From positions 79,895,853-79,959,852 of the forward strand of contig CP092879.1 of assembly GCA_030710605.1 (NCBI GenBank): a stretch of DNA of 64,000 nt, written 5' to 3'. The DNA comes from Cordylochernes scorpioides (lineage: Eukaryota; Arthropoda; Arachnida; Pseudoscorpiones; Chernetidae). Positions 5,582-44,473 of this stretch are shown in pieces. The notes beneath the pieces were generated by a model. The model was given only the letters and a program-made list of their open reading frames with translations. It ran no database searches and was not told the DNA's origin. How positions within the stretch are numbered: the stretch's first letter is position 1; the number at the start of each line of letters is the position of its first letter. The position numbers were made by a program, and so were the translations under genes.

Positions 5582-8500
5582 GTGAGTAACTTCTCCTGAC
5601 TGAACTCACTGATGTTTGTCTTCGTCCATCGTTTCAATGTTTATTTCCTCTGCTGCTGATCCCGACATTCCTTTGTTCGACCCCGCTGTGCTCTGATCGC
5701 AACATTAGCCTCTATAAAAAGTCTCTTTAAAATAGACGCAAAAACTATGCGCTTTGAAATCAACGACTGACGAGGGCTATTAGCTCTAAAAATGTTCATT
5801 TCAGTGGGCGTTCTGAATTTTTCAAAGCTGGTGTTGTGGCTCTGTGCCTAAACCGAATATTATAGTCTTCAGAGACAGTCGAGAGAAGCCGCACTCTGAC
5901 CGACATTCATCTTATAGGACAATATACCGGCGGTATAACCCTAGCAGTGTGTCGCCACCATTGTTGTCCTAGGTAACATAACCTGGGTCTTATTGGATTG
6001 GAAGAATTACTAAGAGATATTCTTCGAATAAAAAACTTTAAAATTCAAACCGGTTCAAAACTATTTTGAGATATAACTGGATACATTGTTGTTGTTGTTG
6101 TCGTGTCCAATGAACAGATGTCTCCATGCATCTCTATCACAGCAGCAGCAATGTCCACTATCTTAGGTGTGTAAGTTGCTGTTCTGGGTCCATGTCAATT
6201 TTCTGCAAGGCTGCGGCCATGAGAATATGTGAGTAGGTGTACTGGATACATTGGAACTGAGTAAATGGGAGAAAATGAGAAGAAAACAGGATTTGAGAGA
6301 AGGGACAAATCAGCTGTGGAGAAACCCATAAATAGAACCATGGAGAAATCGGGAAAATAATTAAAAACTCTAAATATTGGGAAATTTGGAAACTAACGGA
6401 AGAATCAAAAGAGACATATCCTGACGTTCACGTGAACTTTTTAGATGGCAGATGGGTCTTTCTGCAGAGTAGAGCTGGAATTATTTCTCGTTTGTTTTTC
6501 ACTTAATATTTCTCTCTAATTTTATATTTTCTTAGTATCAACAGAGAATTAGCAAAATAAAAAATAAAGAACCATGCTTTTTTGGGGACTTTGGGGGTGG
6601 GATTCCACGTTTTACCACTAGAGTATCATTTATATAACTCCTGTTTAAACTCCTCTGAGAAAGAGGAGAGTATTTTTTAAAATAAAAATAACTTATTTCA
6701 CACAAGCAAAAACATCTACTGTAAATTCTGCAAACACTTCTGCCCAGTATTTGATATAGAAATTCTCTTCCGAAGACTCGGGGGAAAACCGCTGACACAT
6801 GAGGTGAAATAGATATAGAATTTGAAAATAAAAATCATTTTTAGAATTTATGTGAAATATAAAGAGAGAGAAAGAGAATAAATCAATACTTATAAACATA
6901 TTGCAAAAATGAATTGAAATTTGAAAGGCGATTGTTTTTGTTAAAAACTTTAGAAAATAAATGCAAAGGAAATGTGAAGAGGGTTGAAAATAATATTGTA
7001 ACGTATTCGTGGAATAGATAAAGAATTCAGAAGTATTTATTGATGACGTCACCTCGACTAGACAACAATAATTAATTAATTGAAAGTCCAAGCTATGGGT
7101 ACCTATAAATTGAATAAAGTTTTTTATCTATTTTTTTAATAAATAAAATTATAATTAAATATATTTAAAATAAACTATTAAATAATATCTCCGTCACAAA
7201 ATTTGAAAGAAAAATAAACAAACGAAACTTTTGTAATAAAAATTCTCGTCTGATTCAATAAGAGCAGAGGCGCGCGCGCAGCCATTTCTGTGTCAGACGA
7301 CGAGCCATAACTAAAGGCGGTGACGTCACCTAATCGGATCAACCGAACAATATTAAGCCATAAGTCGCCGAGGGTCACGCGCCATTTCCTGCGACAGGTG
7401 GCTTTAAAACGACGCTTTTATGGTCACACAGCGGTGTCAATATGCCAGGGCCTCGTAGAACAAAACAATTTCTTGTTTGGTCAGTTCCCTGGTCAAACTT
7501 GGCTGAATAACAAAGATGGTTTATTGGAAACTGTTGAAATATGTCCACAATGTACACGATAATGCCCGTTTTAAAGAATAAATTTCTTTTGTATTTATTT
7601 GTTCTATGAACAGTTTATTTCGAGAAAAAACTTTGCGAAAATATGTTTCCCGCTGGTTTGTTTCCCTTTCTTCAGTGATTTAATGCAAGAGGTTGTGTTA
7701 AAATATTTCCTCCTCCACAGCTTCCACCTGGTCCTTCCTTGACGCGACTTCTCATGTAAAGCGGAGAGTGAAGTGTGCCCTGAATGATGCTCTGACTTTA
7801 GAAAGGTCAATTTATTAATGTCTGATCAGCATATTGCGGTCTACACACACCATCATATTGCGGTCTACACACACCATCATATTGCGGTCTACACACACCA
7901 ATATGTTACGATACACTAGCGCGCCATCTGTTATCAAATTACAAAACTATTTTAGAGGCGTAATATTCTTTTTAAAATAAAACAATTTCTACTGTCCTTA
8001 CTGCAATGGAAAAATTAAAGGGAGGGCCTGGCTCATCAGTGGTGTGGAATCTACCATGGTAGATTAAACTGGCGAAACCGCTGGGAGGGTTCACCACTGA
8101 TGAGCCAGGCCCTCCCTTTAATTTTTCCATTGCAGTAAGGACAGTAGAAATTGTTTTATTTTAAAAAGAATATTACGCCTATAAAACATACCAATATATT
8201 GTCATCTACACACCACTATATTGTGGTCTACACACCGATGTATTGTGGTCTATACATACCAATATATTGTCGTCTACACGCCACTATATTGTCATCTACA
8301 CACCAATGTATTGTCATCTACACACCAATGTATTGTCATCTACACACCAATGTATTGTCATCTACACACCACTATATTGTGGTCTACACCCCACTATATT
8401 GTCATCTACACACCAATGTATTGTCGTCTACACACCACTATATTGTGGTCTATACATACCAATATATTGTCGTCTACACGCCACTATATTGTCATCTACA

Positions 8501-11500
8501 CACCACTATATTGTGGGCTACACACCACTATATTGTCGTCTACACACCAATGTATTGTCGTCTACACACCAATGTATTGTCGTCTACACACCAATGTATT
8601 GTCATCTACACACCACTATATTGTCATCTACACACCAATGTATTGTCATCTACACACCAATGTATTGTCATCTACACACCACTATATTGTGGTCTACACC
8701 CCACTATATTGTCATCTACACACCAATGTATTGTCGTCTACACACCACTATATTGTGGTCTACACACGCCACTATATTGTGGTCTATACACCACTATCTT
8801 GGGTGTGTAAAGCTGCTGTTCTGGGTCCATGTCAATTTTCTGCAAGGCTGCGGCCATGAGAATATGTGAGTAGGTGTACTGGATACATTGGAACTGAGTA
8901 AATTGGAGAAAATGAGAAGAAAACAGGATTTGAGAGAAGGGACAAATCAGCTGTGAGGGCTCCGCCCAATTTACATAGTTTGCCCCATTAACTCCTCGTG
9001 AGTAATTGTTGACCAGCGGTCAATAAAGTTATTTAATTGTCAAAATTGTCACTATATTGTGGTCTATACATACCAATATATTGTGGTCTACACGCCACTA
9101 TATTGTGGTCTATACATACCAATATATTGTGGTCTATACATACCAATATATTGTGGTCTATACACCAATATATTGTGGTTTATACATACCAATATATTGT
9201 GGTCTATACATACCAATATATTATGGTCTATACATACCAATATATTGTGGTCTATACATACCAATATACTGTGGTCTATACATACCAATATATTGTGGTC
9301 TATACACCAATATATTGTGGTCTATACATACCAATATATTGTGGTCTATACACAAATATATTGTGGTCTATACATACCAATATATTGTGGTCTACACGCC
9401 ACTATATTGTGGTCTATACATACTAATATATTGTGGTCTACACGCCACTATATTGTGGTCTATACATACCAATATATTGTGGTCTACACACCACTATATT
9501 GTGGTCTATACATACCAATATATTGTGGTCTATACACCAATATATTGTGGTTTATACATACCAATATATTGTGGTCTATACATACCAATATATTATGGTC
9601 TATACATACCAATATATTGTGGTCTATACATACCAATATACTGTGGTCTATACATACCAATATATTGTGGTCTATACACCAATATATTGTGGTCTATACA
9701 TACCAATATATTGTGGTCTATACACAAATATATTGTGGTCTATACATACCAATATATTGTGGTCTACACGCCACTATATTGTGGTCTATACATACTAATA
9801 TATTGTGGTCTACACGCCACTATATTGTGGTCTATACATACCAATATATTGTGGTCTACACACCACTATATTGTGGTCTACACGTCACTATATTGTGGTC
9901 TATTCACACCACTATTTATCATTACTCTTCACAATTCATCCTTTCATACTCCATCCCTAATGTTAGAAATAATCGTTATTTCTCCTTAAAATAAATTTCG
10001 ATTTTTCGTTCAAAAGAAACACATGCGGGATAATTTTCAAATGTCGTTCTACAATCATAAGCCGCATTATATTGTATTATGAATTATTCTATATAATATT
10101 TACGAACGGAATAATATGTCCAGGGTAGCCTAGAGGATATGGCATCTGCCCGGTAAGAGAAACACTGTGGGTTCGATTCCCATCCCTAGACACTTTATTT
10201 TTCCGTTTATCATTACTCTTCACAATTTATCCTTTCATATTCCATCCCTAAGGTTAGAAATAATCGTTGTTTCTCCTTAAAATAAATTTCGATTTTTCGT
10301 TCAAAAGAAACACCTGCGAGATAATTTTCAAATGTCGTTCTACAATATTGTGGTCAATACACCACTAGTTTGTCATCTACCCACCACTATATTGTGGTCT
10401 ATACACCACTAGTTTGTCATCTACCCACCACTATATTGTGGTCTACACACCACTATATTTTGGTCTACACACCAATGTATTGTCATCTACACACCACTAT
10501 ATTGTCATCTACACACCAATGTATTGTCATCTACACACCAATGTATTGTCATCTACACACCACTATATTGTGGTCTACACCCCACTATATTGTCATCTAC
10601 ACACCAATGTATTGTCGTCTACACACCACTATATTGTGGTCTACACACGCCACTATATTGTGGTCTATACACCACTATCTTGGGTGTGTAAAGCTGCTGT
10701 TCTGGGTCCATGTCAATTTTCTGCAAGGCTGCGGCCATGAGAATATGTGAGTAGGTGTACTGGATACATTGGAACTGAGTAAATTGGAGAAAATGAGAAG
10801 AAAACAGGATTTGAGAGAAGGGACAAATCAGCTGTGAGGGCTCCGCCCAATTTACATAGTTTGCCCCATTAACTCCTCGTGAGTAATTGTTGACCAGCGG
10901 TCAATAAAGTTATTTAATTGTCAAAATTGTCACTATATTGTGGTCTATACATACCAATATATTGTGGTCTACACGCCACTATATTGTGGTCTATACATAC
11001 CAATATATTGTGGTCTATACATACCAATATATTGTGGTCTATACACCAATATATTGTGGTCTATACATACCAATATATTGTGGTCTATACATACCAATAT
11101 ATTGTGGTCTATACATACCAATATACTGTGGTCTATACATACCAATATATTGTGGTCTATACACCAATATATTGTGGTCTATACATACCAATATATTGTG
11201 GTCTATACACAAATATATTGTGGTCTATACATACCAATATATTGTGGTCTACACGCCACTATATTGTGGTCTATACATACTAATATATTGTGGTCTACAC
11301 GCCACTATATTGTGGTCTATACATACCAATATATTGTGGTCTACACACCACTATATTGTGGTCTACACGTCACTATATTGTGGTCTATTCACACCACTAT
11401 TTATCATTACTCTTCACAATTCATCCTTTCATACTCCATCCCTAATGTTAGAAATAATCGTTATTTCTCCTTAAAATAAATTTCGATTTTTCGTTCAAAA

Positions 11501-14500
11501 GAAACACATGCGGGATAATTTTCAAATGTCGTTCTACAATCATAAGCCGCATTATATTGTATTATGAATTATTCTATATAATATTTACGAACGGAATAAT
11601 ATGTCCAGGGTAGCCTAGAGGATATGGCATCTGCCCGGTAAGAGAAACACTGTGGGTTCGATTCCCATCCCTAGACACTTTATTTTTCCGTTTATCATTA
11701 CTCTTCACAATTTATCCTTTCATATTCCATCCCTAAGGTTAGAAATAATCGTTGTTTCTCCTTAAAATAAATTTCGATTTTTCGTTCAAAAGAAACACCT
11801 GCGAGATAATTTTCAAATGTCGTTCTACAATATTGTGGTCAATACACCACTAGTTTGTCATCTACCCACCACTATATTGTGGTCTATACACCACTAGTTT
11901 GTCATCTACCCACCACTATATTGTGGTCTACACACCACTATATTTTGGTCTACACACCAATGTATTGTCGTCTACACACCACTATATTGTCATCTACACA
12001 CCAATGTATTGTCATCTACACACCAATGTATTGTCATCTACACACCAATGTATTGTCATCTACACACCACTATATTGTGGTCTACACCCCACTATATTGT
12101 CATCTACACACCAATGTATTGTCGTCTACACACCACTATATTGTGGTCTACACACCAATGTATTGTCGTCTACACACCACTATATTGTGGTCTACACACC
12201 AATCTATTGTCATCTACACACCACTATATTGTGGTCTACACACCAATGTATTGTCGTCTACACACCACTATATTGTGGTCTACACACCAATGTATTGTCA
12301 TCTACACACCACTATATTGTCATCTACACACCAATGTATTGTCATCTACACACCAATGTATTGTCGTCTACACACCACTATATTGTCATCTACACACCAA
12401 TGTATTGTGGTCTACACACCAATGTATTGTCGTCTACACACCACTATATTGTCATCTACACACCAATGTATTGTCATCTACACAGCAATGTATTGTCGTC
12501 TACACACCACTATATTGTCATCTACACGCCACTATATTGTAATCTACACACCAATATATTGTATTTATTGTTATATTGTATTTTAAATGTTACTTTAAAT
12601 ATAAGTTATGAACGGAAAAAAAGCAGAAGGGTGTGGGTTCGAATCCCGCCCCTGGACACTTTTTATTTTTCCGTTCTCCATTACTCTTCATGTTTCACCT
12701 TTCCATACCTCATCCTCAAAGTTAGAAATGTCGCTATTTCTCTTTGAAAATAAATTTCGATTTTTAAAAAAGAAACATTCGCGGTATAATTTTAATTTTC
12801 GTTTTACAATCATCAGCCGCGTTATATTGTATTTTAAATGTTACTTTAAATATAAGTTATGAACGGAAAAATACGTCCAGGGTAGCCGAGTGGACAAGGC
12901 ACCTGCCCGGTAAGCAGAAGGGTGTGGGTTCGATTCCCGCCCCTGGACACTTTTTATTTTTCCGTTCTCCATTACTCTTCATGTTTCACCTTTCCATACC
13001 TCATCCTCAAAGTTAGAAATGTCGCTATTTCTCTTTGAAAATAAATTTCGATTTTTAAAAAAGAAACATTCGCGGTATAATTTTAATTTTCGTTTTACAC
13101 ACCAATGTATTGTCGTCTACACACCACTATATTGTGGTCTACACACCACTATATTGTGGTCTACACACCAATGTATTGTCATCTACACACCAATGTATTG
13201 TCATCTACACACCACTATATTGTGGGTTACACACCAATGTATTGTCGTCTACACACCACTATATTGTGGTCTACACACCAATGTATTGTCATCTACACAC
13301 CAATGTATTGTCGTCTACACACCACTATATTGTCATCTACACACCACTATATTGTCATCTACACACCAATGTATTGTCGTCTACACACTGAGATAAGAGG
13401 ATGCCAGCGGGCGACGCTGGCATGGGACGCCGGGAATTCTGCGAGCTGGCCAGCCGGCCTGCGCGCGCACCGGGGGCTGCGCGCGCACTTTTCGAACACC
13501 GCCTGATCTCGCCGGCTGTTTACCGCGCGTCGCTACAACCTGCGGCGGTTCCTTCCATTATATATTACTCTAGGCGCTGGTGGAGTAAAAACTGTACTCC
13601 ATCTGCCTCTTATAATTGTATGTAATTTTTGGACACTTATTAAAATATAAATTATTAATTTATAGTTCTCACTGCAGCTCGAACCTTTACCCTAACGCGG
13701 TAGAACATGGCGCAGTCGACATTCGGTTAATTATAGCCGTTTTTTAAGTGACAGCTCAGTGACAATTAGTAATCAAGATGCCCTCAAGAAGGAATCGCCG
13801 ACCATCCCAAACCCCTCCAGAGAACCCTGCCTCGCCGACCAGCACCGACATCCTCAGGTCCATAGCCGCACTGTTGCAGCAGATGGCTACTCGGAATCCG
13901 ACACCGACAGTCCCATTAGGAGCTCCTCCTCACCACGCCACAAAAATCATCCAGCTTCCTAAACTGGCTTCCCCGGAGGAGTTAACGATGTCTTTTTTCC
14001 GCGATTGGAAACAACGTTGGAACGACTACGTGGACGCCCAACAAGTAGCCACCTTCCCGCTATCCACACAGCAAGTGACTTTGCGTGCCGCCCTCCATTC
14101 CGAATGGACCATCCTTTGGCAATCAGGCCGCCTTCATATTTCTACCACCACCACCCTCGATGAAGCCGTGAATGCTCTCGAGGCCTACCTACGCAAGAAG
14201 CGAAACCCCCTCCTTGATCGGCAAGATTTTCATCGTAGGGACCAACAAACCGGAGAATCGGTGGATCGCTACTTCGCAGCCCTTAAAGCTCTTGATGACT
14301 CGTGTTGCACATGAGCTGGATTTTAAGTGCAGCTCATGCGGCGACCCGTGTATTACAATATGCACAAAAAGAGCTTGTGGGAAAACGTTTGCCCTTGCTG
14401 GTTATCAACAGCAACTCCGTATCCGTGACAGGTTAATATGTGGCCTGTTTGATAAAGACCTCCAACGAAAAGTACTGGCGGAGCAGTACAATTCCGACCT

Positions 14501-17500
14501 CTCCCTGGACCGAGTCCTCTCAATTTGCATCGCACATGAGAGTGCTACCGCCGTGGGCGCGACTCTTTCACCCTCCCCAACCACCTCCCCCGAAGCCTTC
14601 ATTGCAACCAGACGTGCACCATCAACCTACAAGCATCAACAAGCCAGCTCGTCTGAAACCTCACCTAAGGCCAACCGTTTCTTTCAGAAACCCTATGATC
14701 CTAACGACCCCTGCTCCGGATGTGGGGCTAACCCAAGACACCGCCGTGACCAGTGCCCAGCAAAAGACATAGAGTGTAACAAATGCGGCATCACCGGGAA
14801 TTACGGAAGGGTTTGCCGACAACTGAAACGGAAACCCACAACCAAACCTAATATCCCGCCACCCGCAACCAGAAACAATCGGTCCCAACCAGGACCCTCA
14901 AACACAGTTGTTGCAGCTGGAGTACGCAACGAACTCATAACCATTCCGACCGATATCAACCATAAGTTACACCAAATCCGTTGGCTGGCGGACCCGGGGT
15001 CAGATCTGGATCTAATCCCAGAATCAGAATTCCTGTTACTGGATGAGCAAACCCGATCAGCACTCAACCCGAAGAACGTCCCTTGCGTAGGAGCCAACGG
15101 CATCAGCTTAAGTCCTTGTGGATCGTTCGTCGCGGCACTGCATCTCAACGGGAAAACATACAGTACTACCGTTGGAGTCTGCAAGCACCTGAACGCCCCT
15201 CTCTTGAGCAAGAGCGGATGCAAAGCCTTAGGACTTCTGCCGGATAACTGGCCCCATTCAATGATCGTCAATGCCATAACCAACGGACAAGTTCTAACGT
15301 TCCCGCCGACCCCGGTGAGAGCCAATGAGATCGATAAGCAGTCTATCCTTACCCATTATGCTAGAGCGTTCGACGACACAGTGTTAAAACCCATGCAAGG
15401 ACCCCCCATGTCTATCGAACTAGTTAAAGATGCCGTTCCTTGCAAACGCTACCGGGCATACAACGTTCCCTTTCACTGGAGAGACCCCGTCAAAACTCAA
15501 CTCGATACCATGTTGGCGAAAGGGATAATCGAACAGGTACCCGTCGGCGAAGCCATCGATTGGTGCCATCCTATGGTAGTCGTCCCGAAAAAAGGCTCAT
15601 CACAAGTCACTATACCAAATGATCTCGCCGGTGCCATCATTGGGAAAGGTGGTCAACGCATCAGGAAGATCCGGCGCGAGTCTGGTGCGGGGATCACCAT
15701 AGATGAGTCTCAACCTGGTAGCAACGAACGGGTCATCACCATCTCTGGCACGCCCCAGCAGATCCAGATGGCCCAGTACCTCTTGCAGTAAAATGTAAGA
15801 GAACATTCCTTCCGGAAGCGATACAATCGCAACGCCAAGCCACTCTCACATTTGGAAGTGGGAGCAATAGTCCTTGTCCAGGATCACCGCACAAAACATT
15901 GGACCCTCCTTGCTGAGGTTCTCGAACAACTTCCACGCGGTCGCAGCTACCTCATCCGGACCGACGCCGGACGCCTTCTTCGCCGTTATCGCAGATTCTT
16001 ACGACCTTTCGTGCCTCCACCGTACACCACCCCACCCAACTCAGCTCAACATCAGCAGACCTTATCCCCTCGAACCCGAGAACCGAACCCGCGTTATAGC
16101 AACTACGTTGGATCGGTCCCAAGTCCCAATCTCCAGGGGGGGCATGAGATAAGAGGATGCCAGCGGGCGACGCTGGCATGGGACGCCGGGAATTCTGCGA
16201 GCTGGCCAGCCGGCCTGCGCGCGCACCGGGGGCTGCGCGCGCACTTTTCGAACACCGCCTGATGTCGCCGGCTGTTTACCGCACGTCGCTACAACCTACG
16301 GCGGTTCCTTCTATTATATAATACTCTAGGCGCTGGTGGAGTAAAAACTGTACTCCACCTGCCTCTTATAATTGTATGTAATTTTTGGACACTTATTAAA
16401 ATATAAATTATTAATTTATAGTTCTCACTGCAGCTCGAACCTTTACCCTAACGCGGTAGAACACACACCACTATATTGTGGTCTACACACCAATGTATTG
16501 TCGTCTACACACCAATGTATTGTCATCTACATGCCACTATATTGTGGTCTACACACCAATGTATTGTCATCTACACGCCACTATATTGTGGTCACCACTA
16601 TAACGCCCGCAGTGACCTGCTGTGGAGCTAACAACACGACGTGCAGGCCAGGCGGGCGTCAATCAGCTCGGCGGCGTGTTCGTCAACGGCCGACCGCTGC
16701 CCGACGTGGTGCGACGCCGCATCGTGGAGCTGGCGCTGCTGGGCGTGCGGCCCTGCGACATCTCGCGGCAGCTGCTGGTGTCCCACGGCTGCGTCTCCAA
16801 GATCCTCACCCGCTTCTACGAGACCGGCTCCATCCGCCCGGGCTCCATCGGCGGCTCCAAGCCCAAGGTTGTGAACTCAGTTGTTTGTTTCAGTCCACAG
16901 AGTTCCCGCGCCACGTGTCTGAATTATTAGTCTAAATATCACCATTACCTTAACACCATCAATCTCAATCAAAATTATAAACATATTTTTAACGCCACTT
17001 TTCTATTATAAAATATATACTCTTTTTCGACAGCCCTTTTTTAAATTTTTATTGATTGCAGGATAATCGCTGTAGAGCTAAATTTTAATTATATATATTT
17101 TAAAAGAAAACTGGCGTTAAAAATATGTTTATAATTTTCATCATTGTTTTTTCCTTGCACCACACTCACACTGTGTCGTTGACTGAAGTTTGTGCACTAA
17201 AGCTGCGACATGTGCAGCAAGTGGCCACGCCGCAGGTGGTGCGCAAGATCCTGCGGCTGAAGCAGGAGAACCCGGCCATCTTCGCCTGGGAGATCCGCGA
17301 CCTGCTGCGTGCCCAGCGGGTGTGCGACGACCGCACGGTCCCCAGCGTCTCCTCCATCAACAGGATCCTTCGGAACAGCGGCCACCTGGTGGCGGAGGAC
17401 GCTCTGCTGCCCTCGGTCTCGGGTAGGTGGGCTTTTCTAGTGAGAGAAGGTAGCTCAGAGGTGGGGCTCCAGGTGGAGGACCCCCGGTGTTCCCTCCCGC

Positions 17501-17752
17501 CTACCTCGCGCCCCCCCGCCGCCCCTGCCAGGGAGCCAGCGGGCCCCGCCGCCACGCCCAAGTCCACGGGCTACTCCATCGAGGAGCTGCTCAAGCCCCG
17601 CGCTCCCAAACGTCCCGCAGGTAAGCCGGCCCTCAGTCCCAGATGTGTCAGTCACAAATGTCGTAGCAGAGGAGCTCCAGAGGTGGGGCGCCTTCCCTCG
17701 GCTGGCCCTGCCCCCTCCCTACCCCCTGCTGCCACCCGCGGACCCCCGCTGA
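5569..17752 (+). CDS. Poxn: Pox-neuro (Pax family transcription factor), five coding exons
   Basis: A nuclear DNA-binding protein; in flies it specifies poly-innervated sense organs and appendage patterning. Exons read from splice sites and phase: 5569-5581, 16647-16867, 17218-17426, 17532-17620, 17670-17752, giving 204 aa. The start is [14 protein letters not shown], the characteristic pox-neuro N-terminus, split after base 1 of the Gly codon. The paired domain (about residues 5-130) contains [20 protein letters not shown] and [14 protein letters not shown], with the pox-neuro-type [18 protein letters not shown]. There is no homeodomain. The C-terminal part has [14 protein letters not shown], matching the conserved YSIEELL motif of fly Poxn. 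The fly protein is about twice as long; here the Ala/Pro-rich middle is nearly absent, or an exon was missed. The third-to-fourth exon join (donor GTGGGC) was chosen because it keeps YSIEELL in frame. A polyadenylation signal follows at 17830. Confidence 0.9.
5582..7949. other. Poxn: Proximal pox-neuro intron 1, non-coding
   Basis: Intron sequence without a recognisable gene. At about 6165-6310 it carries a single copy of the unique spacer that recurs beside the minisatellite at 8800 and 10680 (TGGGTCCATGTCAATTTTCT and flanks), so a piece of the repeat block was copied here. Positions 7320-7560 are locally GC-richer and open in more than one frame but show no domain. Three 24-bp minisatellite units (CGGTCTACACACACC) stand at about 7829-7904. 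Confidence 0.6.
7950..8185. mobile_element. Perfect-armed fold-back MITE in pox-neuro intron 1
   Basis: The arm from about 7955 (AGGCGTAATATTC) is repeated as its reverse complement ending near 8180. The two arms, nearly 90 bp each, are almost identical and include GGGAGGGCCTGGCTCATCAG. A short central spacer holds its own dyad (ATCTACCATGGTAGAT). Diverged members of the same family lie near 39308-39392 and 39575-39665. It is non-coding and would form a long hairpin if transcribed. Confidence 0.9.
8187..8795. repeat. 22-bp minisatellite (ACTATATTGTGGTCTACACACC type), block 1
   Basis: A tandem 22-bp unit with variants at GTGGTC/GTCATC/GTCGTC and CACTATA/CAATGTA. Because 22 is not a multiple of 3 and no frame has a stop, all three forward frames stay open and encode the same His/Tyr/Thr-rich peptide cycle. 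These frames are by-products of the repeat, not genes. Confidence 0.95.
10119..10191 (+). pseudogene. tRNA-like sequence, degraded copy A
   Basis: This 73-nt segment aligns to the better-preserved copy at 12876. It keeps TAGCCTAGAGG at the A-box position and GGTTCGATTCC (a perfect B box). The acceptor stem has a mismatch (TCCAGGG/CCCTAGA) and the 3' side of the anticodon stem is disrupted. It is flanked by inverted AACGGAA/TTCCGTT, as are the other copies. Confidence 0.75.
11604..11676 (+). pseudogene. tRNA-like sequence, degraded copy B (duplicate of A)
   Basis: Identical in layout to the copy at 10119 and created by the segmental duplication of the surrounding block. It shares the same acceptor mismatch and broken anticodon arm, so the decay predates the duplication. 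Confidence 0.75.
11830..12566. repeat. 22-bp minisatellite, block in pox-neuro intron 1
   Basis: The same unit family as 8187-8795 (ACACACCAATGTATTGTC and ACCACTATATTGTGG variants), open in all forward frames and ending where an AT-rich sequence leads into tRNA-like copies. Confidence 0.94.
12621..12657 (+). pseudogene. tRNA-like 3' half
   Basis: Contains only the anticodon 3' strand, variable loop, T arm (GGTTCGAATCC) and 3' acceptor strand of the tRNA-like unit. The 5' half, with A box and anticodon, has been lost. It is preceded directly by GAACGGAAAAA, the normal left flank, so about 37 bp were deleted relative to the copy at 12876. The downstream flank repeats almost exactly 290 bp later. 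Confidence 0.8.
12876..12948 (+). tRNA. tRNA-like gene with intact pol III boxes, anticodon GGT (Thr-like)
   Basis: A 73-nt cloverleaf can be drawn: acceptor TCCAGGG/CCCTGGA (7 bp, all paired), U8-A9, D arm GCC...GGC, anticodon arm with CTGC/GCAG and loop CCGGTAA, five-base variable loop, and T arm GTGGG-TTCGATT-CCCGC. The A box TAGCCGAGTGG and B box GGTTCGATTCC match pol III consensus, and TTTTT follows. The read anticodon is GGT. Oddities: position 33 is C where tRNAs have an almost invariant U, and the gene sits inside an inverted flank (GAACGGAAAAA/TTTTTCCGTTC) in a repeat. It may be a tRNA-derived repeat rather than a translating tRNA. Confidence 0.6.
13097..13388. repeat. 22-bp minisatellite interrupted by the LTR element
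   Basis: The array resumes at 13097 and stops at the LTR retrotransposon at 13389. It continues on the far side at 16464-16594, so the transposon landed inside the array. The duplicated target CACAC is itself part of the repeat unit. Confidence 0.95.
13389..13707 (+). repeat. 5' LTR
   Basis: Begins TGAGATAAGAGG and ends GCGGTAGAACA. It has two GC-rich hairpins near the start (GATGCCAGCG...CGCTGGCAT and TGCGCGCGCA repeats) and a TATATATTA box-like site about 175 bp in. Six mismatches separate it from the 3' LTR. Confidence 0.95.
13778..14314 (+). pseudogene. gag N-terminal part of the LTR element, frameshifted
   Basis: ATG at 13778 opens a 178-codon frame typical of Ty3/gypsy gag: a basic Pro-rich start, then [16 protein letters not shown] and [21 protein letters not shown], which match the gag capsid pattern of mag-like elements. 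The frame closes at TGA 14312 just after [10 protein letters not shown]. The true continuation ([14 protein letters not shown]...) lies in the +1-shifted frame from about 14304. A one-base indel, or less likely a programmed shift, separates them. Confidence 0.85.
14304..15791 (+). CDS. Chimeric gag-pol reading frame: zinc knuckles, protease, RT N-terminus, KH domain
   Basis: An uninterrupted frame to TAA 15789. In order: a Cys-rich gag segment (CSSCGDPC); zinc knuckle 1 ([15 protein letters not shown], with Cys/His intact) and knuckle 2 ([14 protein letters not shown], where the zinc His is replaced by Asn); an aspartic protease with [10 protein letters not shown], where the usual D-T/S-G has become D-P-G; then the RT fingers region ([32 protein letters not shown]). 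RT stops exactly there. The frame then passes into a complete KH domain (15603-15788). No RT catalytic YxDD exists in the element. The fusion is open and could be translated, but the changed protease and knuckle residues suggest relaxed selection on the viral-type enzymes. Confidence 0.85.
15603..15788 (+). other. Captured KH domain (hnRNP K / bancal KH3-like), 62 codons
   Basis: Reads [20 protein letters not shown], then [32 protein letters not shown]. This is a full KH fold with the RNA-contacting GxxG loop GKGG and the hydrophobic pattern intact. From my knowledge of the family it matches the third, C-terminal KH domain of hnRNP K much better than PCBP or other KH proteins. There is no intron, so it came from a spliced RNA. 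Both junctions are in frame with the retroelement: RT PKKGSS upstream, and integrase C-terminus downstream after one TAA. The likely mechanism is template switching onto hnRNP K mRNA during reverse transcription; that step is inference. Confidence 0.88.
15792..16134 (+). pseudogene. Integrase C-terminal remnant of the LTR element
   Basis: Directly after the TAA and in the same frame, the sequence reads [60 protein letters not shown]. This is the integrase C-terminal DNA-binding domain and tail found at the end of mag/gypsy-type pol. The HHCC zinc domain and DDE core are absent. Apart from the TAA, the fusion would be open through into the 3' LTR. Confidence 0.8.
16145..16463 (+). repeat. 3' LTR
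   Basis: 319 bp, same length as the 5' LTR. Observed differences include ATCTCG/ATGTCG, CGCGCG/CGCACG, CCTGCGG/CCTACGG, TTCCATT/TTCTATT, ATATTA/ATAATA and CCATCTG/CCACCTG. Confidence 0.95.
16464..16594. repeat. 22-bp minisatellite, distal part after the LTR element
   Basis: The continuation of the array split by the retrotransposon. It ends only about 50 bp before the splice acceptor of the pox-neuro paired-domain exon at 16647. Confidence 0.93.
16647..17752 (+). CDS. Poxn: Pox-neuro coding exons 2-5 (paired domain and C-terminus)
   Basis: Exon 2 (16647-16867) starts after GTGCAG and ends at PK|GTTGTG. Exon 3 (17218-17426) opens [11 protein letters not shown] after TGTGCAG. Exon 4 (17532-17620) carries YSIEELL. 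Exon 5 (17670-17752) ends PLLPPADPR and TGA. Phases are 1, 0, 2 and 1 at the four junctions and all close. An alternative last-exon frame running to TAA 17764 is possible if a different acceptor (17680) is used. Codons are strongly GC-rich compared with the AT-rich introns. Confidence 0.88.
16971..17138. mobile_element. Fold-back MITE in pox-neuro intron between exons 2 and 3
   Basis: The left arm AAAATTATAAACATATTTTT and its reverse complement near 17120-17138 bound a 168-bp palindromic, AT-rich sequence that includes TAACGCCA...TGGCGTTA. It makes up about half of the 350-bp intron. Confidence 0.85.
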
Positions 17753-18716
17753 CTGCCCACACATAACATCGTTGTAATATAAGATTGCCTCATTTGTTTG
17801 CTCCTTTGTAAACCATCCCGTGTACATTAAATAAACTTTTATTTACAGTTTATCAAGTCGTGTGTTGATGGTGCAGCCAATCCTGGCAGGCCCAACACAA
17901 AGTTTTTATTTACATATAACTGCTGGCCAATTATACCCCGCACATAACGGTATAAACATTTTAAATTTTAACCTTACAATTATATCTGCATAAATATTTA
18001 AAAAAACACATAACCATCGCTAAAGTTTTGTGAAAAAAATCTCCACATTGTGGGAATGAATTAGGGAAATTTGGGCAATTTTAACTCATTTAAAAATCAT
18101 CGGTTTTAAAAATGTTCACGCGATATTAATCGAGGCGTTGTGTAAAAAATAAATCGATAAAAATAAAAAGTTATTTCCTCTCTAATTGCTCTGTCTTTTT
18201 ATAACCGACGGGTGTTGCGTGGTATTCAGCACATACCTGCCCGCAGCGAAGGTAAGTTACATATTGCTCGGTACGTTCGAACCAACAGTTGTTTGACAGA
18301 CGGAGGAAACGTTTGTTCTAAGGAAATGTCGAGAGAGAAACACTTTTTTAAAACCTCCCAAGAGACCTACGTGTCGTAAATGAGGTCAAATGATGGTTCA
18401 TATATCAGGAACGATGTTCAAGGATGCAGACTTCATTCCCATGATGTTTTATACTTATTTATCCTAAGCTCACTTGGACCCATGATGACCACGGTGGGTA
18501 GTTATAGGCTCTATTAAGTGCACCCCATAGCTACACATTTTCAGTTAGCGGGTGCCAGATCTGGCTACTTGCATATACTGGTGGGGTTGGACTTGTGCAC
18601 GACTCAGGGCGCCATTGAAGCAATTTAAAGCAATTGAAGCAATATCCAGGGTTGTGGTAGCAGGAGATCGACAGCTCCAACCAACCAAACCTCGCCATAT
18701 GTTTTCCTAATCCCAG
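17753..18716. other. Pox-neuro 3' end and intergenic DNA
   Basis: The polyadenylation signal AATAAA at 17830-17835 ends the likely pox-neuro 3' UTR. The rest is AT-rich. Positions about 18470-18660 resemble a dispersed repeat also seen at 37715-37990 (CATGAT..CGTGGTG, GTGCCAGA, TTGCATATAC). I see no open gene, though an upstream exon of the DEG/ENaC gene could hide here, since its first exon is preceded by an acceptor-like TCCCAG. Confidence 0.6.
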
Positions 18717-21011: not shown

Positions 21012-24000
21012 GTCACTCTCACTGAAGTAGACCTTGACTAATGGGCAGCTTGAACCTCACTTCACTGCAGTTGACCTGGATGTATGGGCAGCTTGAGCTC
21101 TCTACACAGCAGTAGACCTGGATGTATGGGCAGCCCGAACCTCTACACAGCAGTAGACCTGGATGTATGGGCAGCTTGAACCCCACTTCACTGCAGTAGA
21201 CCTGGATGTATGGTCAGCCCGAACCTCTACACAGCACTAGACCTGGATGTATGGTCAGCCCGAACCTCTACACAGCAGTAGACCTGGATGTATGGGCAGC
21301 CCGAACCTCTACACAGCAGTAGACATGGATGTATGGTCAGCCTGAACCTCTACACAGCAGTAGACCTGGATGTATGGGCAGCCCGAACCTCTACACAGCA
21401 GTAGACCTGGATGTATGGGCAGCCCGAACCTCTACACAGCAGTAGACATGGATGTATGGGCAGCCCGAACCTCTACACAGCAGTAGACCTGGATGTATGG
21501 GCAGCCCGAACCTCTACACAGCAGTAGACCTGGATGTATGGGCAGCCCGAACCTCTACACAGCAGTAGACCTGGATGTATGGGCAGCCCGAACCTCTACA
21601 CAGCAGTAGACATGGATGTATGGGCAGCCCGAACCTCTACACAGCAGTAGACCTGGATGTATGGGCAGCCCGAACCTCTACACAGCAGTTGACCTGGATG
21701 TATGGGCAGCCCGAACCTCTACACAGCAGTTGACCTGGATGTATGGGCAGCCCGAACCTCTACACAGCAGTAGACCTGGATGTATGGGCAGCTTGAGCCC
21801 CTCTACACAGCAGTAGATCTGGATGTATGGGCAGCCCGAACCTCTACACAGCAGTAGACCTGGATGTATGGGCAGCCCGAACCTCTACACAGCAGTAGAC
21901 CTGGATGTATGGGCAGCCCGAACCTCTACACAGCAGTAGACCTGGATGTATGGGCAGCCCGAACCTCTACACAGCAGTTGACCTGGATGTATGGGCAGCC
22001 CGAACCTCTACACAGCAGTTGACCTGGATGTATGGGCAGCCCGAACCTCTACACAGCAGTAGACCTGGATGTATGGGCAGCTTGAGCCCCTCTACACAGC
22101 AGTAGACCTGGATGTATGGGCAGCCCGAACCTCTACACAGCAGTAGACCTGGATGTATGGGCAGCCCGAACCTCTACACAGCAGTAGACATGGATGTATG
22201 GGCAGCCCGAACCTCTACACAGCAGTTGACCTGGATGTATGGGCAGCCCGAACCTCTACACAGCAGTAGACCTGGATGTATGGGCAGCCCGAACCTCTAC
22301 ACAGCAGTTGACCTGGATGTATGGGCAGCCCGAACCTCTACACAGCAGTTGACCTGGATGTATGGGCAGCCCGAACCTCTACACAGCAGTAGACCTGGAT
22401 GTATGGGCAGCTTGAGCCCCTCTACACAGCAGTAGATCTGGATGTATGGGCAGCCCGAACCTCTACACAGCAGTTGACCTGGATGTATGGGCAGCCCGAA
22501 CCTCTACACAGCAGTTGACCTGGATGTATGGGCAGCCCGAACCTCTACACAGCAGTAGACCTGGATGTATGGGCAGCTTGAGCCCCTCTACACAGCAGTA
22601 GATCTGGATGTATGGGCAGCCCGAACCTCTACACAGCAGTTGACCTGGATGTATGGGCAGCCCGAACCTCTACACAGCAGTAGACCTGGATGTATGGGCA
22701 GCTTGAGCCCCTCTACACAGCAGTAGATCTGGATGTATGGGCAGCCCGAACCTCTACACAGCAGTAGACCTGGATGTATGGGCAGCTTGAGCCCCTCTAC
22801 ACAGCAGTAGACCTGGATGTATGGGCTGCCCGAACCTCTACACAGCAGTAGACCTGGATGTATGGGCAGCTTGAACCCCACTTCACTGCAGTAGATCTGG
22901 ATGTATGGGCAGCCCGAACCTCTACACAGCAGTAGACCTGGATGTATGGGCAGCTTGAGCCCCTCTACACAGCAGTAGACCTGGATGTATGGGCTGCCCG
23001 AACCTCTACACAGCAGTAGACCTGGATGTATGGGCAGCTTGAGCCCCTCTACACAGCAGTAGATCTGGATGTATGGGCAGCCCGAACCTCTACACAGCAG
23101 TAGACCTGGATGTATGGGCAGCTTGAGCCCCTCTACACAGCAGTAGACCTGGATGTATGGGCTGCCCGAACCTCTACACAGCAGTAGACCTGGATGTATG
23201 GGCAGCTTGAACCCCACTTCACTGCAGTAGACCTGGATGTATGGGCAGCCCGAACCTCTACACAGCAGTTGACCTGAATGTATGGGCAGCTTGAACCCCA
23301 CTTCACTGCAGTAGACCTGGATGTATGGGCAGCCCGAACCTCTACACAGCAGTAGACCTGGATGTATGGGCAGCTTGAACCCCACTTCACTGCAGTAGAC
23401 CTGGATGTATGGGCAGCCCGAACCTCTACACAGCAGTAGACCTGAATGTATGGGCAGCTTGAGCCCCTCTACACAGCAGTAGACCTGGATGTGTGGGCAG
23501 CTTGAGCCCCTCTACACAGCAGTAGACCTGAATGTATGGGCAGCTTGAGCCCCTCTACACAGCAGTAGACCTGGATGTATGGGCAGCCCGAACCTCTACA
23601 CAGCAGTAGACCTGAATGTATGGGCAGCTTGAGCCCCTCTACACAGCAGTAGACCTGGATGTATGGGCTGCCCGAACCTCTACACAGCAGTAGACCTGGA
23701 TGTATGGGCTGCCCGAACCTCTACACAGCAGTAGACCTGGATGTATGGGCAGCCCGAACCTCTACACAGCAGTAGACCTGGATGTATGGGCAGCCCGAAC
23801 CTCTACACAGCAGTAGACCTGGATGTATGGGCTGCCCGAACCTCTACACAGCAGTAGACCTGGATGTATGGGCAGCCCGAACCTCTACACAGCAGTAGAC
23901 CTGGATGTATGGGCAGCCCGAACCTCTACACAGCAGTAGACCTGGATGTATGGGCAGCCCGAACCTCTACACAGCAGTAGACCTGGATGTATGGGCTGCC

Positions 24001-40651: not shown

Positions 40652-40722
40652 GCATCGGTGGTTCAGTGGTAGAATCCTCGCCTGCCACGTGGGCGGCCCG
40701 GGTTCGATTCCCAGCCGATGCA
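40652..40722 (+). tRNA. tRNA-Gly (GCC)
   Basis: 71 nt from GCATCGG to CCGATGC-A: 7-bp acceptor, D arm GTTCAGTGGTAGAAT, anticodon loop CTGCCAC with anticodon GCC, and T arm with GGTTCGATTCC. A T run follows as a pol III terminator. Compared with the usual animal tRNA-Gly(GCC), there is CC for GC after the D arm, GTGGG for GCGGG, and CCCAG for CCCGG (one T-stem mismatch). It is embedded in a local repeat, so it may be an amplified or decaying copy. Confidence 0.8.
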
Positions 40723-42031: not shown

Positions 42032-42311
42032 TCACCAATCCAATCCCAACTTCCAGTTGACAGCACCTTCGCTGTCACAACTACTACAGAGAAAACGGAG
42101 AATAGGCAAGATTCTCCACAGAGAAAGAGAGTCGACAGGATAAAGTATAGAAGGACAAATAACCGAAAAGGAAGGGCCGGAAGGATCAAAAATAGAACGG
42201 GCCTCCGAACGACACTCTACACCAGGGGATGTAAACGGAGTCTGTCGCCTCGCCGAGGCGCTCGTTCAGCTGACCGCCGTCCTCGCCAACCTGAGAAGTA
42301 GTCCACAGAGA

Positions 42312-43085
42312 GTGGATAGGGCTGAGATCCACTGCGAACCCTACGAAGGTAATTACCCAGCCACAACCTTCTTTCAGGCCTATGATAGACAATGCGACCT
42401 GGCGTTCCTAACTCTGTCAGAAAGGCTCGCAAATCTCCCGCGCTTCCTTGAGAAAGGCGTCCTAACTCTGTTCAGGAATCTGAGGCTCGATGCCCAGTCT
42501 TACATGCAGGCCAGACAGACCCTCATAGACTTGTACCCCGAAACCAATGAAGCGTCGTACGCGAAATTCTTCGCCATCAAATTGGCGGGGCATCATAGTC
42601 TCGAGGACTTTTACCGAAATAAGTGCGCCATGGGCCTTCAGCTGGGTCTCCCACAAGAAGTGCTACTTGAGACGCTGACAGAGGGCCTTCCAGCTTCCGA
42701 CCAGCGTCTAACCCGCGTGGCAGCCCCAAAATCTCTAAGCGAGTGGTTCGACGTGGTGTCGCGTGTTCGCGGAGACAACGCTCCACCACAGAGGCAACAA
42801 GACGCCCTCCCGAACATGCCGGGACCATTCCACAGCACACCTCAACGCGGCAGAACTGCTGCAGCACCGCCCTCACCTTGCCGCCACTGTGGAGGTCCGC
42901 ATTGGAATGCGGATTGCCCCCACAAGAAGGGGCACCTTAGTGCACGTGCGATGCACCTCGGCACAAGTACAAGGTCTGACCAAAGACAGACAAGGCTGGA
43001 ACCATCCCGGGAATCCAGACCAGCCCAAACCAAGGAGAGCCAGGTAGGCACCCCTGCCTCCTTTCGTCCAACAGCTAATTGTTAG
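42312..43085 (+). CDS. gag protein of the Ty3/gypsy element
   Basis: 257 codons from ATG 42312. The capsid-like region includes FLTLSERLANLPRFLEKGVL, QTLIDLYPETNEASYAKFF and LGLPQEVLLETLTEGLP. Near the C-terminus is a zinc knuckle CRHCGGPHWNADC (C-x2-C-x3-H-x4-C). An arginine-rich stretch upstream (from about 42120) may belong to the same protein in another frame. Confidence 0.75.
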   Translation: MDRAEIHCEPYEGNYPATTFFQAYDRQCDLAFLTLSERLANLPRFLEKGVLTLFRNLRLDAQSYMQARQTLIDLYPETNEASYAKFFAIKLAGHHSLEDFYRNKCAMGLQLGLPQEVLLETLTEGLPASDQRLTRVAAPKSLSEWFDVVSRVRGDNAPPQRQQDALPNMPGPFHSTPQRGRTAAAPPSPCRHCGGPHWNADCPHKKGHLSARAMHLGTSTRSDQRQTRLEPSRESRPAQTKESQVGTPASFRPTANC

Positions 43086-43465
43086 ACTTTACCTCCAACC
43101 CTGTTGACACGGGTGCGAGCCTTAACATAGTGTCTCAAAATATGTACCAGTACTTAAATAGAATTAAAAAACTAAAAATAGAACCCCAAATCACCCCCAT
43201 AAACTCCATAGCAGATACCATAACCCTAGGACGAGTGACCACGACAGAGAGATTCCATATATTGGACGCCCCTCTGCCGTTTGAAATACTATCCATTAAC
43301 ACTATAAAGAATTTAAAATTAAAAATAGATTTTGAAAGAGGCACTATGATACAGCTCTGCATCCCTTTGCCACACGCTACCTACCACTTTGTATGTGTCT
43401 CTCTCCGGCGAATGTACCTATTGGCAATGCCAAGCGGAAATGTTGAAGGCCAACCCAACATATAA
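43079..43465 (+). pseudogene. Aspartic protease fragment of the Ty3/gypsy element
   Basis: NPVDTGASLNIVS carries the D-T-G-A active-site motif, followed by a retropepsin-like fold pattern to LKIDFERG. It overlaps the end of gag by a few bases in another frame. RT should follow but does not. Confidence 0.7.
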
Positions 43466-43895
43466 GCCTCCCGCACCTGGCAACCAATACGCGCATTCGT
43501 TGAACACGCATGTAATGTCACACTCTTTGGCCATGTCTACTTTCGTCTCATGCCCACCGCGCAACTTTCACCAACCTCATGCACGAAATGCATCAAACCC
43601 AGGTGTCCCAAAGACACCAAAAAACTTTTTTCAGCATGCCCAACACGCAGCATCACCTTACACACCATGCCTTGCTATACACCATGCCCAATGTCCCACA
43701 TGTAATACTCAAATGGAATACAATCGCTCTAGCCATGTACCACCAGTGTCCCCCACACTACGTCGCAATGCTACCACCTACAATAGTGACAACACCTCAC
43801 AACACGATCCCACACGTGTACACACCTCCGCACATAACATTCATCACAATGCCCTTCAAAATCATATCGCCGGTACCACCACACCACTCACGCGA
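43466..43895. other. CA-rich segment where RT should be
   Basis: About 430 bp rich in CAC/CAT/ACA, open in two frames (His/Asn/Thr/Pro-rich). One other frame is Cys-rich (SPTSCTKCIKPRCPKDTKK). It has no RT motif (no YxDD). It could be decayed sequence, a foreign insert, or a replacement by recombination. Confidence 0.5.
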
Positions 43896-44473
43896 AACAC
43901 AGACATCATACACGCCATCCAACCACCACACAACCGCAAAACATTACAGTCCTTCCTAGGTGCGGTGAACGTACATCCCTAAATAACCTTCTCAAAAAGG
44001 ATGCAACATGGGCCTGGGATGAAGCGTGCCAAGCGGCATTCAACGCTCTAAAGGACTCCCTCACCACACATCCAGTCTTACACTTTTATCAGGATGGTCT
44101 GCCATGCCAGATTTACTGTGACGCCTCAACACTCGGCATAGCAGGTATCCTCAAACAGGTCCACCCTGATGGGAAGACTTATCCAGTCCAGTACTTCAGT
44201 CGTGCTCTGCGTACACATGAGCGGAATTATACCATCTCCGAACTAGAATGTCTCGCAATTGTCGAGAGCGTGGAGAAGTTCCGTGTGTACCTGATGGGTA
44301 GAAGATTTACAATATTTTCTGACCATCACGCATTGCAATGGCTGAAGACGATCAAAAACCCGTCAGGCAGATTGTTTAGATGGAGTTTGAGATTATCGTG
44401 TTACGAGTATGAAGTCCGCTACATAAAAGGCGCGCAACAACATGAAGCGGATCTCCTATCCCCTATCCCGTAA
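43896..44473 (+). pseudogene. RT connection and RNase H domain of the Ty3/gypsy element
   Basis: First the end of RT (IIHAIQPPHNRKTLQSFLGAV), then after a frame change at about 43980 NLLKKDATWAWDEACQAAF, IYCDASTLGIAGIL, SELECLAIVESV, FSDHHALQWL and HEADLLS. The four RNase H acidic residues (D of CDAS, E of ELEC, D of SDHH, D of EADL) are present, but the frame is broken upstream. Confidence 0.85.

Follow-up and report, generated by a model that had tools for sequence, protein, structure and literature searches.

Oncogene-transducing retroviruses are replication-defective and helper-dependent, and carry a host coding sequence in place of their own. The element described here resembles them in that host coding sequence replaces its own and helper functions would be required, but it is a germline retrotransposon without envelope, and the acquired domain is a KH RNA-binding domain. 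Capture of host genes by LTR elements is already known, as outlined in the sources cited here, from Bs1 and from metazoan LTR retrocopies. Reviews on Bs1 of maize (PMC13317346, PMC5408686) describe an LTR element with host-gene pieces in a chimeric reading frame; it is a plant element with pieces of three genes (H+-ATPase and two others), whereas the present chimera contains one complete RNA-binding domain, has a donor and a parent known at the DNA level, and is found in many recent copies. Metazoan LTR-mediated retrocopies (Tan et al. 2016, as reported in PMC5408686) are attributed to switches of template, at microsimilarities, from element RNA to an mRNA packaged with it or the reverse, a feature that the chimera appears to share; the same source presents them as gene retrocopies, whereas the chimera has become an element family that multiplies and whose reading frame is open across the insert. 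A further precedent is given by bdelloid elements with extra ORFs, for one type of which the authors favour inter-element exchange over host capture (PMC5408684).

The window (the whole stretch of DNA analysed, 64,000 nucleotides from the pseudoscorpion Cordylochernes scorpioides) contains at positions 13389-16463 an LTR retrotransposon, recognized by paired TG...CA LTRs and target duplications and probably of Ty3/gypsy type. It is a derivative form, considered as non-autonomous because a complete reverse transcriptase (RT) and integrase of its own are absent. All its features lie on the + strand. The 5' LTR (13389..13707, TG...CA) and the 3' LTR (16145..16463) are each 319 nt long and differ at 6 positions (1.9%), close to the 2% given in a preliminary description of this DNA. 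CACAC is found on either flank, which is possibly a 5-bp target duplication, ambiguous within a CACAC-rich minisatellite. The primer-binding-site region, read from the sequence (13708..13732), begins with TGG immediately 3' of the 5' LTR and is followed by the 5' part of gag (13778..14314). Two CCHC-like motifs at 14694..14840, without Pfam match, are presumably nucleocapsid zinc knuckles. The active-site motif of the protease region (14850..15329) is DPG, the usual motif being DTG or DSG; over 69 loci, DPG was found in 49, DTG in none and neither in 20, and two models that lack KH, P0123 and P0125, have DPG too.

An N-terminal fragment of RT (15330..15602), terminating in PKKGSS, is followed directly and in frame by a KH domain (15603..15788) with an intact GxxG loop (IIGKGG), which forms the end of the open frame 14172-15791. 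An in-frame stop codon (15789..15791), present in the window copy alone among the copies examined, precedes the C-terminal tail of integrase, which extends through the polypurine tract (15819..16144). Pfam scans of four pieces detected KH-type families only; RT, RNase H and integrase core were not found in these pieces. The protein of the window copy itself is broken, because a frameshift interrupts gag near 14300 and a stop stands directly after the KH domain.

The insertion site consists of 22- to 24-nt minisatellite arrays (CACACCACTATATTGTGGTCTA type; 8148-13390 and 16464-16600). A Paired-box (PAX) coding sequence (16616-17763; Pfam PAX in two pieces, E 8.7e-42 and 3.8e-17) begins about 180 nt past the 3' LTR, which places the element just upstream of a Pax gene exon. 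tRNA-like genes are present at 10119-10191 and 11604-11676, both within a unit duplicated at 1485-nt spacing, at 12875-12950, in repeats adjoining the minisatellite, and at 40652-40722. The window also contains a second, different retroelement remnant with RNase H domains (42144-44473). An array of 41-nt tandem repeats and, on the minus strand, an open frame of repetitive sequence are found at 21060-21973 and 22588-23511.

The preliminary description had reported the KH domain, joined in frame after PKKGSS, and had assigned it from family knowledge to hnRNP K KH3; the observation was confirmed and the assignment is supported. The domain matches Pfam KH_1 (E 1.4e-22; KH_2 just above cut-off), and the nearest solved structures are those of hnRNP K KH3 (PDB 7cre, 1zzi, 1j5k), with which 62/62 residues are aligned (E 4e-23 to 6.1e-23). 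The best 120 matches of a protein search are nearly all arthropod hnRNP K, with at most 85% identity; the highest-scoring one is a nematode multi-KH protein, 56% identical. Together with the DNA match to the host gene described below, these results agree on hnRNP K KH3 and rule out another KH family. The domain of the element differs from that of hnRNP K in being separated from KH1, KH2 and the rest of the protein, and in being part of a fusion with what remains of Gag-Pol. C-rich RNA or single-stranded DNA is the ligand of KH3 in hnRNP K.

Another protein search gave three C. scorpioides proteins that match the element stretch, wholly or in part, at 97-99% identity, and two that are more distant; public protein models with identical junctions derive from the same assembly and are not independent support. 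One chimeric copy carries the name HNRNPK in public protein records, so that annotation is affected. The C. scorpioides hnRNP K protein itself was absent among the best 120 matches in each of three protein searches; the recall of one of these is incomplete, as it missed the chimeric proteins P0122 and P0124, found by another.

The host hnRNP K gene was located in the genome by a KH1-KH2 query, which matched exons on contig C9 (9.9-kb locus L039). The KH stretch of the window aligns to two exon blocks of this locus. The first starts with GGCTCATCA and ends with AAATGAT, and is separated by an intron of 57 nt, bounded by GT and AG, from the second, which begins with CTCGCC and is followed by a GTAAGT splice site. 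The next exon begins, after ...TTGCAG, with TGTAAGAGAACATTCCGGAAG, and the hnRNP K reading frame terminates there. In the element the three exon pieces are directly joined and 208 of the 209 nucleotides compared with the host gene are identical. The element lacks both introns of this stretch, and the source of the insert was therefore spliced mRNA, a match which is defined by the absence of the gene-locus introns from the element. The earlier remark that the KH domain has no intron is thereby turned into an argument in favour: in the host gene, the stretch that was captured is split by two introns, neither of which has left a nucleotide in the element. By DNA-level comparison, the donor is the hnRNP K gene of the host itself, located on contig C9. 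The captured stretch (15594..15818, a span that counts the nucleotides shared at both switch points) comprises 221 nt of host origin and a 4-nt TTCC duplication, and exceeds the KH domain in length.

A parental copy was reached through the sequence upstream of a KH-less integrase tail. Parent and chimera are identical over the 49 nt shown (the last 49 nt of the RT fragment) through GGCTCATCA and then diverge, while host and chimera are identical from GGCTCATCA onward; the 5' switch point (15594..15602) is thus a 9-nt identity between the parent element and an hnRNP K exon. On the 3' side, the sequence is ...CTCAAGCGATACAA in the parent, GAGAACATTCCGGAAGGAAG in the host and GAGAACATTCCTTCCGGAAGCGATACAA in the chimera. 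The switch point AAG (15816..15818, 3 nt) is common to the last hnRNP K exon and the parental integrase, and TTCC (4 nt) is duplicated. As read from the sequences, this duplication is the reason why the KH domain and the integrase tail are in the same frame; the exact order of events at the 3' switch is a reconstruction, because only 3 nt are shared and a duplication is present.

Between GGCTCATCA and the beginning of the sequence used as integrase-tail query lie 2181 nt in the parent and 222 nt in the chimera, and the 2181 nt replaced include RT, RNase H and integrase core; as had been proposed, the KH domain stands in place of the enzyme core. The integrase-tail query, which is the chimera's own tail and hence favours chimeras, gave 590 candidates, of which 40 were scored: 34 have the KH domain upstream and 6 have parental integrase without KH. 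The RT side, read at one parental place, has no stop in 466 codons, and at one locus parental RT is followed by parental integrase, 2181 nt apart. KH-less gene models of C. scorpioides contain RVT_1 and RNase H (P0128) or the integrase core, rve (P0123, P0125). The KH domain is consequently not an ordinary domain of this retroelement clade, its KH-less relatives having RT or integrase at that place. The parent, whose copies were each read in part, is likely to be autonomous. P0123 is the C. scorpioides NIP7 model and contains protease-like and integrase sequence; an element is therefore probably inserted in the NIP7 gene.

We consider that spliced hnRNP K was captured by template switching and that the product then spread as a non-autonomous family (probability of about 0.93). 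An LTR retrotransposon, probably of Ty3/gypsy type, would have packaged spliced hnRNP K mRNA, a co-packaging deduced from the junctions. During minus-strand synthesis, RT would have jumped from the element RNA to the hnRNP K mRNA at the AAG of its last exon and proceeded back across KH3, a slip of 4 nt setting the frame; at the 9 matching nucleotides GGCTCATCA it would have returned to the element RNA. The order of these steps is taken from what is known of minus-strand synthesis. The product retains LTRs, primer-binding site, gag, protease region and polypurine tract, has lost the RT-RNase H-integrase core, and has gained KH3, which is in frame with the RT stub before it and the integrase tail after it. 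Its spread would depend on enzymes supplied in trans, presumably by the parental family, which is still present. The model of LTR-mediated retroposition, as set out in PMC5408686, fits this origin.

If expressed and translated, intact copies would produce a polyprotein of some 830 residues with the order Gag-PR-RT stub-KH3-IN tail. Of the 39 testable loci (those that could include the gag start), at least 12 have a single frame, 761-841 codons long, that extends from gag through the KH domain (12 is a minimum, as the script demanded an exact gag start), and 832-codon open frames occur at many KH places.

Selection was examined by pairwise dN/dS on 40 copies, in which pairs share branches and loci were chosen by KH protein similarity. 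Values were 0.89 for gag, 0.64 for the next stretch, 0.06 for the zinc-knuckle region (the strongest constraint among the seven regions compared), 0.44 for protease, 1.25 for the RT stub, 0.52 for KH and 1.14 for the integrase tail. In 30 loci retrieved with the KH DNA query (L001-L030), values were 0.08 for the zinc knuckle, 0.44 for protease, 0.79 for the RT stub and 0.83 for the integrase tail; these loci show no difference in the KH domain, as expected of the best KH matches, and for this reason were not used for the KH selection test. Distinct KH variants pooled from the 40 copies and the integrase-tail sample (four loci in common) comprise 10 synonymous and 12 non-synonymous changes. The synonymous excess over neutrality gives p values of 0.03, 0.05 and 0.07 at transition weights of 1, 2 and 4 for the pool, and is not significant for each sample alone (p 0.11-0.25); RT stub and integrase tail appear neutral in this variant test. 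Fisher's comparison of KH with its flanks gives a one-sided p of 0.06 for the pool and a two-sided p of 0.33 for the first sample. The KH domain has no net frameshift and no stop in 37 covered copies; net frameshifts and stops number 4 and 2, respectively, for the RT stub (37 copies) and two each for the integrase tail (38 copies), a comparison which shares the KH-similarity sampling bias. In the comparison across copies that had been proposed, KH lies below its flanks in the 40 copies; the evidence for purifying selection on KH is suggestive only, and such selection was not retained as an established fact.

The KH domain is probably a tolerated passenger in a short, efficient cis-parasite; a very small share of the probability was assigned to no reading. 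It is also conceivable, though rather unlikely, that the domain serves the element, as a Gag fusion that may aid RNA binding or packaging or may bind C-rich cDNA, and that selection keeps it. The retained GxxG loop, the 10 synonymous to 12 non-synonymous changes next to apparently neutral flanks, the lower pairwise dN/dS of KH, and the 4-nt slip that sets KH and integrase tail in one frame are consistent with such a service. Against it stand the non-significant tests per sample and against the flanks, the choice of the first sample by KH protein similarity, the weaker contrast given by flank values of 0.79 and 0.83 in the 30 loci, and the alteration of conserved KH positions in some copies. 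Also counted against it is the rejection of a link between KH3 and C-rich motifs of the element RNA: compared with 300 shuffles, TCCC and CCCC are not in excess, and ACCC is only slightly so (26 versus 21.0 in shuffles, with 29/300 shuffles reaching 26).

A still less probable reading is that the element interferes with hnRNP K, through a decoy protein or through small RNAs directed against the near-identical stretch, and so weakens a factor that silences retroelements. The match of the captured stretch to host mRNA sequence (208/209 nt) would suit this reading, which was drawn from two reports: in mouse ES cells, endogenous retroviruses are silenced by SETDB1/KAP1 in a manner that requires hnRNP K (PMC4303303), and retrocopy-derived piRNAs are reported to silence their source gene in the Plutella moth (PMC9674220). 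The KH stretch, however, is sense-oriented in the element, and antisense RNAs would require antisense transcription. We also know of no KAP1-type silencing in arachnids, which was counted against interference. The element might profit, though this is doubtful, from a working-form domain of a host silencing protein, if Gag-KH3 or the 209-nt near-identity blunted silencing or made a small-RNA defence costly. If true, silencing interference would help explain a young, numerous and defective chimera (34/40 tail places, with a query that favours chimeras).

The capture-and-spread reading rests further on the genomic copies. With the KH stretch as DNA query, 351 first-look candidates were obtained, and all 40 scored, the window copy included, match over the full length (216 nt). 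In total, 94 loci were read (30 + 39 + 25, the first 30 from the KH DNA query), of which 88 hold 89 KH copies, window copy included, and the remaining 6 are parental. Copies with the same junction, which the preliminary description had proposed to search for, were thus found 88 times elsewhere in the assembly. Copies are the best-scoring matches (40/351, 150/386 and 40/590 candidates scored), so that age and divergence estimates lean to young, well-kept copies. The copy numbers given are lower bounds. Both spliced joins are present in 89/89 copies, the 5' junction in 87/89 and the 3' junction in 88/89 (at most 1 mismatch). The copies in L040 and L043 are cut short within the captured stretch by other sequence, an insertion is found at the 5' junction in L049, and L045 is a tandem of two copies with one LTR in common. 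Capture by DNA-level recombination, or by read-through from a neighbouring hnRNP K gene, is very improbable, and nothing was found in its favour: both introns are precisely missing in every copy, for which spliced RNA is needed, and the hnRNP K insert lies inside the element rather than at the end of an LTR. DNA-level capture is thus not tenable given the spliced joins, barring an intronless hnRNP K retrogene as donor.

LTRs were compared in 39 loci (40 comparisons, the tandem L045 being used twice), which gave 34 alignments and 6 without any. The 26 alignments of at least 280 nt, a few of which extend past the LTR, have a median divergence of 0.29% and a maximum of 0.99%; 12 of them have no mismatch (three of the 12 with gaps). 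The window copy, with LTRs 1.9% apart, is older than these. Exact 5-bp target duplications, all different, were found in 18 of the 19 loci with both ends placed by script. An assembly chimera or a single rearranged locus, for which nothing was found to speak, can be set aside, as 89 copies lie over many contigs, 18/19 have target duplications of their own, and misassembly is very unlikely because of the 88 further copies elsewhere in the assembly. Between copies, divergence is higher in LTRs (median 6%) than in internal parts (0.7%; 666 pairs of 37 copies, correlation -0.34), a comparison which includes truncated LTRs and suggests LTR exchange with relatives. Two recurrent internal deletions, corresponding to window positions 15289-15538 and 15284-15587 (L002, L013, L022, L024 and L015, L025, respectively), mark sub-lineages in which more of the RT stub is lost and KH is kept, in loci picked by KH match. 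Going beyond the preliminary description, the analysis shows that the window copy belongs, in worn form, to a chimeric family of Cordylochernes scorpioides that has many copies and was mobile recently.

A literature search (titles and abstract openings, subscription papers being mostly outside it) gave no report of an LTR element that had captured KH or hnRNP K, and the titles and abstract openings of the C. scorpioides transposon literature report no such capture. As far as these searches go, what is new is the in-frame KH domain replacing the enzyme core, in a young multiplied family for which both donor and parent are known at nucleotide resolution. As hnRNP K takes part in the silencing of endogenous retroviruses in mouse cells (PMC4303303), it can be tested if the acquired domain acts as passenger, packaging aid or decoy. 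The family is a germline retrotransposon with gene transduction of retroviral style, of which the donor gene, the parent, both switch points and the near-identical offspring are found in one genome, and it shows that an enzyme-less chimera with a cellular RNA-binding domain can spread widely.
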